Part shown: piece by piece, positions 8,610 to 15,724 of the stretch
Position numbering within the stretch: the stretch's first letter is position 1
Layout: each line of letters begins with the position of its first letter
DNA from: Magnetospirillum sp.
Lineage (GTDB): Bacteria; Pseudomonadota; Alphaproteobacteria; Rhodospirillales; Magnetospirillaceae
DNA length: 36,929 nt
Direction: 5' to 3'
NCBI GenBank assembly: GCA_016212565.1
Contig: JACRFY010000012.1
Coordinates: 1-36,929, forward strand
Made by a program: the position numbers and the translations under genes
Notes under the pieces: model-generated
The model's input: the letters and a program-made list of their open reading frames with translations, nothing else
Database searches by the model: none
Told to the model about the DNA's origin: nothing

Positions 8610-8655
8610 TTCGATTCTGGAACGGCGCCCGCCGGCCGTGGTAAAGTCGAAGGTA

Positions 8656-8685
8656 GCCGGCATCGGGGTCCAGCCCGACGCCGGC
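8656..8685. other. Strong hairpin downstream of queA
   Basis: GCCGGC-a-TCGGG pairs with CCCGA-c-GCCGGC around a 6-base loop: 11 pairs and one mismatch. No T-run follows on either strand, so it is not a classical terminator. It is the first of four hairpins in the queA-tgt spacer. Confidence 0.55.
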
Positions 8686-8690
8686 CGCTC

Positions 8691-8771
8691 CTAGGTCCTG
8701 GTCACGGTCAGGCGGATGCACATCCGCCAGATCCGCAACCGGAGCACCAGGAGAAAGCCCATTTGGTTCAT
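8691..8771 (-). CDS. Candidate 26-aa small protein between queA and tgt
   Basis: The frame begins with ATG and MNQMGFLLVL, continues with a basic, hydrophobic segment (RLRIWRMCIRL) and ends TVTRT before TAG. A strong ribosome-binding sequence GGAGGAGG lies 8 bases before the ATG, stronger than for most genes here. The start codon falls within the stem of a hairpin (8754-8779), and another perfect hairpin (8711-8728) lies inside the frame. It could be a small membrane-associated peptide, a leader peptide or part of a structured RNA. I recognise no family. The length is too short for coding statistics. Confidence 0.35.
   Translation of the reverse strand: MNQMGFLLVLRLRIWRMCIRLTVTRT
8711..8728. 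other. Perfect 8-bp hairpin inside the small reading frame
   Basis: ggcggatg-ca-catccgcc is an exact palindrome with a two-base spacer. In RNA the two-base loop would force one or two pairs open. Confidence 0.5.
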
Positions 8772-8779
8772 GGGTCTTT
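8754..8779. promoter_or_regulatory. Hairpin enclosing the start codon of the small reading frame
   Basis: aaagcccat pairs with atgggtcttt across ttggttc, with one bulged base. Read on the minus strand, the ATG at 8771 is in the stem and GGAGGAGG lies just outside it, an arrangement that could limit translation. Confidence 0.4.
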
Positions 8780-8788
8780 CCTCCTCCA

Positions 8789-8828
8789 GACGGCGGCCCG
8801 GCCAATTCCGAGCCGCCGTCGTCATTTT
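8789..8828 (+). terminator. Possible rho-independent terminator before tgt
   Basis: gacggcggc (8789-8797) pairs with gccgccgtc (8812-8820) as 9 perfect pairs around a 14-base loop, followed by gtcatttt. The T-run is short. On the plus strand it would end a transcript from queA before tgt. Confidence 0.4.
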
Positions 8829-8851
8829 GACACGGCGACTGATATCCCCAT

Positions 8852-15480: not shown

Positions 15481-15535
15481 CGGTTCCTCCCGGCTGGGGG
15501 TCGAAATGGCCGGACGTGTGGCGTCAAGCCGATTG

Positions 15536-15712
15536 CCCCCCTCTGTCTGGGAACCTGAAAGATTCACCCCGGAGGGGGCTTACATCGTCGGTGGGCGAGG
15601 CTGTCGTTCCACGCCGGCTTTCCAGAGGTACATCCCCCCGCGGTCCTTTTGCCTGAGAGTTTCCAGGGGCGGTTGCTCCTTCGGCGCCAAACGGTCTCTC
15701 CCGCGGGGATCG
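15536..15712 (-). ncRNA. Tandem glycine riboswitch (gcvT motif)
   Basis: Read on the minus strand, the first aptamer (about 15712-15633) begins GCGGGAGAGACC, has GGCGCCGAAGGAGCAA and ends AACTCTCAGGCAAAAGGACC. The second (about 15630-15536) runs from CCTCTGGAAAGC through CGCCCACCGACGATGTAAGC to AATCTTTCAGGTTCCCAGA and CAGAGG, which pairs with its opening CCTCTG. These are the conserved elements of both glycine aptamers. It lies 56 bases upstream of gcvT, between promoter and start codon. In other bacteria glycine binding turns on gcv expression; that is expected here. No clear terminator stem follows, so translational control is more likely (inference). Confidence 0.95.
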
Positions 15713-15724
15713 TCTGCGGCGTGC

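Follow-up and report, generated by a model that had tools for sequence, protein, structure and literature searches.

A candidate type I toxin-antitoxin-like module inserted between queA and tgt in Magnetospirillum and common in Azospirillum

A structured insert between queA and tgt

The window, that is, the whole stretch of DNA analysed, comprises 36,929 nucleotides of a Magnetospirillum sp. contig. Within it, queA and tgt, whose identities were confirmed by Pfam, are separated by 242 bp. We regard this whole interval, from the queA stop to the tgt start (8610..8851), as an inserted unit because, in 25 of the 27 other relatives with both genes on the locus, the two genes either abut or overlap, mostly by 4 bp. 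The two exceptions are L220, with 29 bp between the genes, and L210 (genome G016), where the junction is split by a different sequence, 162 bp of unrelated DNA. Besides the window genome, only G004 carries the element between queA and tgt (232 bp). In other relatives, the element lies between the gene for an rsmD-like methylase and rmuC, and its further neighbors include accA and genes for a RecQ-like helicase, a TypA/EF-Tu-type GTPase, a trypsin-like protease, a malate/lactate dehydrogenase, and a branched-chain amino-acid permease, among others. The sequence-only reading had proposed, as one possibility, a unit antisense to the queA-tgt transcript. The element is not tied to that transcript, as it is an independent insert at many loci and apparently has its own antisense promoter.

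All four hairpins previously described within 173 bases (8656-8828) were found. H4 (8656-8685; 12-bp arms, 92%) and H1 (8789-8820; 13-bp arms, 92%) can form on both strands. H4 would be the 5' hairpin of a plus-strand RNA and the 3' hairpin of a minus-strand mRNA. H1 would be the 5' leader hairpin of that mRNA, and on the plus strand it is terminator-like and followed by CGTCATTTT. A third hairpin (8708-8731) lies within a minus-strand peptide frame, and the hairpin said to enclose the ATG of this frame is present at 8749-8785. The predicted fold and the consensus structure additionally place a minus-strand stem over the distal part of the ORF and the stop region (8686..8746), with the inner palindrome TGGCGGATNNNNATCCGCCT in the WRIxIRL codons. 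The density of structure is beyond that of a plain spacer, as had been suggested. The 173-nt fold has a free energy of -93.2 kcal/mol on the plus strand (z -7.1) and -106.6 kcal/mol on the minus strand (z -9.2). In either case, none of 200 dinucleotide shuffles was as stable, and the region is an insert absent from most relatives. An Rfam scan placed no family at gathering on the element (best score 15.9 bits, against a cutoff of 42.8). Elsewhere in the window, a tandem glycine riboswitch is located at 15533-15713 on the minus strand, with two RF00504 aptamers scoring 71.5 and 37.3 bits.

The minus-strand peptide frame and its sequestered start

The minus-strand frame (8691..8771; ATG 8771-8769, TAG 8693-8691) encodes a 26-aa peptide, the candidate toxin MNQMGFLLVLRLRIWRMCIRLTVTRT. 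Exactly 8 bases separate the putative Shine-Dalgarno sequence GGAGGAGG (8780..8787, minus strand) from the ATG, the spacing originally reported, and homologous loci have a site of the GGAGG/GGAG type. The peptide is basic and hydrophobic, also as reported, with a net charge of +5 and 58% hydrophobic residues. An in-frame ATG further upstream, at 8825, would extend the frame to 44 aa; the conserved start is the internal ATG at 8771. A peptide profile that included the window sequence matched the window peptide in its own genome with an E value of 1.3e-13.

Intact copies all encode a peptide of 24-29 aa with the form MxKMPFLLVLxxRxWRIxIRLxVTRA. The ATG and the ribosome site are at the same place in every intact copy, a stop follows close behind at homologous loci, and copies from the window genome's own family differ by a single 3-nt indel within the frame. 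In a coding test based on column shuffles, the peptide frame reached a z of 3.05 in the family and 3.5 with distant members included, no more than 1 of 500 shuffles did as well, and there were no internal stops. Coding-like substitutions were found in only one of the six frames, the minus-strand peptide frame; for the best of the other frames, 21 of 500 shuffles were as good. The small-protein gene that had been offered as one possibility is supported, in that conservation is seen at the level of the peptide and the substitutions in its frame look coding-like.

Type I toxins are commonly small, hydrophobic, and membrane-associated, often with a cationic C-terminus (PMC8309996). Across the family, the peptide has a charge of +5 to +8 and 50-62% hydrophobic residues, which makes it the kind of small, cationic, coding-conserved ORF expected of a type I toxin. 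The window peptide is mildly hydrophobic (GRAVY 0.56), and some Azospirillum copies have a negative GRAVY. The computed amphipathic moment was significant for none of the peptides, and searches of the peptide in Pfam, NCBIfam, PHROGs, and PADLOC returned no family matches.

The ribosome site is predicted to pair with codons 5-8 of the frame in all 35 loci compared. Sequestration of this kind is a common, though not universal, feature of type I toxin mRNAs. In the window, GGAGGAAAG pairs with the in-frame anti-Shine-Dalgarno sequence CTTTCTCC, and the start codon lies within the same predicted hairpin (8749-8785, minus strand). The pairing is kept by different sequences at different loci: CAGGAG/CTCCTG in L048 and GACGACATG/TGTCGT in L049. 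Alternative pairs occur at positions -3/14 and -2/13, the latter as G-C, A-T, C-G, and G-T. H1 and H4 are likewise found at homologous positions with pairing retained, H1 through 24 distinct 5' arms and H4 through 31 distinct arms in the 35 loci. The structured RNA offered by the sequence-only reading is supported by these hairpins, which are kept despite sequence change.

Not all of the structure behaves in this way. The inner palindrome within the peptide codons is not kept in all distant loci and is lost in L049, L055, and L122 while the peptide stays. In synonymous shuffles, the ribosome-site hairpin showed little extra stability (mean z -0.65), with no clear selection beyond the peptide's own constraint. 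Assignment of the structure to a strand is weak because the ratio of G-U to A-C is only 12:5 in the helices common to both folds.

Promoter-like signals and distribution of the element

We compared promoter-like signals in 31 diverged loci, using a spacer-aware test for the plus strand since the distance from the -10 to the hairpin varies among loci. A promoter signal of the type TTGAAA-17-TATA[GT]T lies on the plus strand immediately beyond the 3' end of the peptide gene. Its mean best score was 8.77 compared with 6.90 in dinucleotide shuffles (z 14.9). The z values for these loci overstate the number of independent observations, since the 31 include loci related to one another. A score of 8.5 was reached in 22 of the 31 loci, against 1.9 expected, whereas adjoining control DNA in the same test gave z values of 0.0 and -0.7. 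Judged by its motifs, this promoter appears to be of the sigma70 type. It is the strongest of the conserved signals. The homologous position in the window (8618..8647, plus strand) carries a putative antisense-RNA promoter with a -35 of TGGAAC (8618-8623), an 18-nt spacer, and an extended -10, TGgTAAAGT (8639-8647). It is weak (TGGAAC-18-TAAAGT, 7/12, with extended -10 TGg), and a strict scan does not call it. Given the promoter position, H1, and the T-rich stretch, the predicted antisense (antitoxin-like) RNA would span 8650..8828 on the plus strand, about 175-180 nt, and by position would overlap the toxin mRNA fully.

On the minus strand, a weaker -10-like motif, TA[TG]AAAT, precedes the 5' hairpin at a constant distance; 0 of 1,000 shuffles were as good, and a separate test gave z 4.1. 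Because the motif shares bases with the T-rich stretch predicted to end the plus-strand RNA, its conservation may be due in part to termination. In the window, the putative -10 of the peptide mRNA is CAAAAT (8824..8829, minus strand), and the -35 is indistinct. The minus-strand mRNA has no clear U-tract terminator in most loci.

To survey the element, we built a covariance model from 11 copies and counted family members at E ≤ 0.001. In the window genome's own family, the model matched 14 of 55 genomes (about a quarter), a count that includes G035, whose locus L041 was rejected on inspection. A second alphaproteobacterial family, in which Azospirillum predominates, had the element in 51 of 82 genomes; the carrier names and matching loci indicate that this is the family of Azospirillum itself. 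Low-scoring model matches at L045 and L047 were rejected on inspection as L041 was, and reverse-strand model matches proved to be hairpin cross-matches. Carriers in a pattern scan include Azospirillum species, Paramagnetospirillum kuznetsovii, a Phaeospirillum MAG, Magnetospirillum sp. UT-4, and Aerophototrophica crusticola, which has three copies. About half of the pattern matches in genome contigs were due to chance, with the rest of the peptide missing and many of them in unrelated phyla. Two pattern matches in viral contigs were discarded, as the peptide profile scored neither of them above 12 bits. No phage or plasmid homologues were found by short-query tblastn, a method of low sensitivity for peptides of 24-26 aa.

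Occurrence is patchy inside genera. A search for own-genome repeats found none in the window genome, where the element is single copy. Tandem copies occur in other genomes. G021 has three head-to-tail copies spaced by about 257 bp, the last of them truncated where the contig ends; G012 has at least two, with a third partial; and G054, G765, and G769 have two each. The two tandem copies of G054 (L046, 1470-1933) are distant members in which Gly replaces the conserved Trp. Each also has an additional hairpin upstream of the ribosome site and, on the coding strand, a T4 terminator downstream of the peptide. In two Azospirillum loci, L092 and L159, the peptide is frameshifted mid-frame and the strong plus-strand promoter is kept, which fits a harmful peptide, although two such copies are a small number.

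Readings of the element and known systems

The conserved peptide, the kept hairpins, and the strongly conserved promoter on the opposite strand together have the architecture of a type I toxin-antitoxin system. We put the probability of a stand-alone type I toxin-antitoxin-like module at roughly 70%, with toxicity, transcripts, and antisense repression as its predicted components. The three possibilities raised at the outset, a structured RNA, a small-protein gene, and a type I toxin-like unit, are supported together by the comparative evidence. The element is type I-like by its layout, and we infer the toxin label from architecture and distribution.

We also infer that both transcripts exist. 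In the proposed mechanism, a weak minus-strand promoter would give an mRNA of about 170 nt that begins with a stable hairpin and encodes the 26-aa cationic, hydrophobic peptide, which would probably act at the inner membrane and may be toxic there. In the full minus-strand transcript, pairing with peptide codons 5-8 would close the ribosome site and the start codon into a fold and so keep translation low. A stronger, conserved sigma70-type promoter on the plus strand would produce an RNA of about 175 nt, fully complementary to the mRNA and ending at H1. This RNA could repress the peptide by blocking translation or by triggering decay of the duplex.

The peptide could instead be a non-toxic small membrane protein, a regulator or stress peptide that modulates a membrane protein and is made under the control of RNA structure and antisense RNA. 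Its coding and ribosome-site conservation, its mild hydrophobicity, and its broad spread through the second family, with 51 of 82 genomes carrying it, agree with this reading. However, we consider it unlikely, as patchiness within genera, tandem copies, unrelated neighbors, and decayed peptides beside a retained plus-strand promoter better fit an addictive or dispensable module.

It is more doubtful still that the functional product is the plus-strand RNA, a structured regulatory sRNA whose CCUCCU could bind the ribosome sites of other mRNAs, with the minus-strand frame a by-product of DNA palindromes. The prominence of the plus-strand promoter among the conserved signals, the terminator-like hairpin, and the CCUCCU motif in the sequence would suit such an sRNA. 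In contrast, coding-like substitution in the minus frame only, the retention of start, ribosome site, and stop, and a sole small indel of 3 nt speak for the peptide, as do the distant loci L049, L055, and L122, which keep it without the nucleotide palindrome inside.

Empty sites in relatives, strong palindromes, and differing insertion sites might suggest a miniature mobile or repeat element, a palindromic intergenic repeat without a gene product that landed by chance between queA and tgt. We think this very improbable, as such repeats usually occur in many copies and the window genome has one, and as two promoter-like signals and coding conservation point to gene products. A cis-acting leader or attenuator of tgt, suggested by the queA-tgt position in two genomes and by a terminator-like hairpin in the operon's path, is contradicted by the distribution and can be dismissed: association with tgt is not constant, nearly all relatives lack the element upstream of tgt, and it also lies beside rsmD/rmuC, accA, the recQ-like helicase gene, the malate/lactate dehydrogenase gene, and others.

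Under the type I toxin-antitoxin-like reading, it is probable, if slightly less so than the reading itself, that the element represents an undescribed chromosomal type I family in Alphaproteobacteria, found in Azospirillum and relatives and in Magnetospirillum-like bacteria. Its unit would be about 200 bp with two fully overlapping genes, inserting independently, even into an operon overlap, and duplicating in tandem. The papers searched, which did not include T1TAdb and Fozo 2010, gave no description of this family or of any type I system from these organisms. A module of a tiny peptide and a putative antisense RNA of this kind would be new in Rhodospirillales.

The Ibs/Sib and Ldr/Rdl systems of Enterobacteria have a very small hydrophobic peptide and an overlapping antisense RNA, and tandem copies are possible. 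The element resembles them in its very small hydrophobic peptide, its predicted overlapping antisense RNA, and its tandem copies, but differs in peptide and RNA sequences and in having a strongly cationic peptide (+5 to +8) with W-R motifs. The gene for the Zor antitoxin adjoins the toxin gene and is not fully antisense to it, unlike the antisense RNA proposed here, and no common sequence family was found. Zor/Orz of E. coli O157, with a 29-aa toxin, repression by the 5' region of the toxin mRNA itself, and tandem copies (PMC11264685), is similar to the element in peptide size, in repression by its own mRNA, which is predicted here, and in tandem copies. AapA/IsoA of Helicobacter pylori shares with it a peptide of about 30 aa, a cis-antisense RNA (predicted for the element), and several chromosomal copies. 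In that system, the Shine-Dalgarno sequence is sequestered by hairpins, one of which, in AapA3, has the anti-Shine-Dalgarno inside the toxin ORF (PMC6733600), the arrangement predicted here. In contrast to AapA/IsoA, the GC-rich element has stable 5' hairpins on both predicted RNAs, and no common sequence family was found in the libraries searched.

Members of the element family are frequent in the plant-growth-promoting genus Azospirillum, and gene callers easily miss a peptide frame of 24-29 codons. Natural variants, including the frameshifted ones, provide a ready set for testing how the module spreads, duplicates, and decays. The Azospirillum copy L136 is decayed, with the stop lost and the W-R motif altered. 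In L065, L067, and L068 (second family, Azospirillum-like), the usual stop is lost and the frame extends into or through the 3' hairpin. L091 and L117 of Azospirillum sp. TSO22-1 are divergent (MKKMPFLLVFAWRDWVIAITKRRRRKA; MRRMPFLLVLLWKDWLITIRRIRRTRR), keeping the N-terminal half of the peptide, with a very basic tail in place of the C-terminal half.
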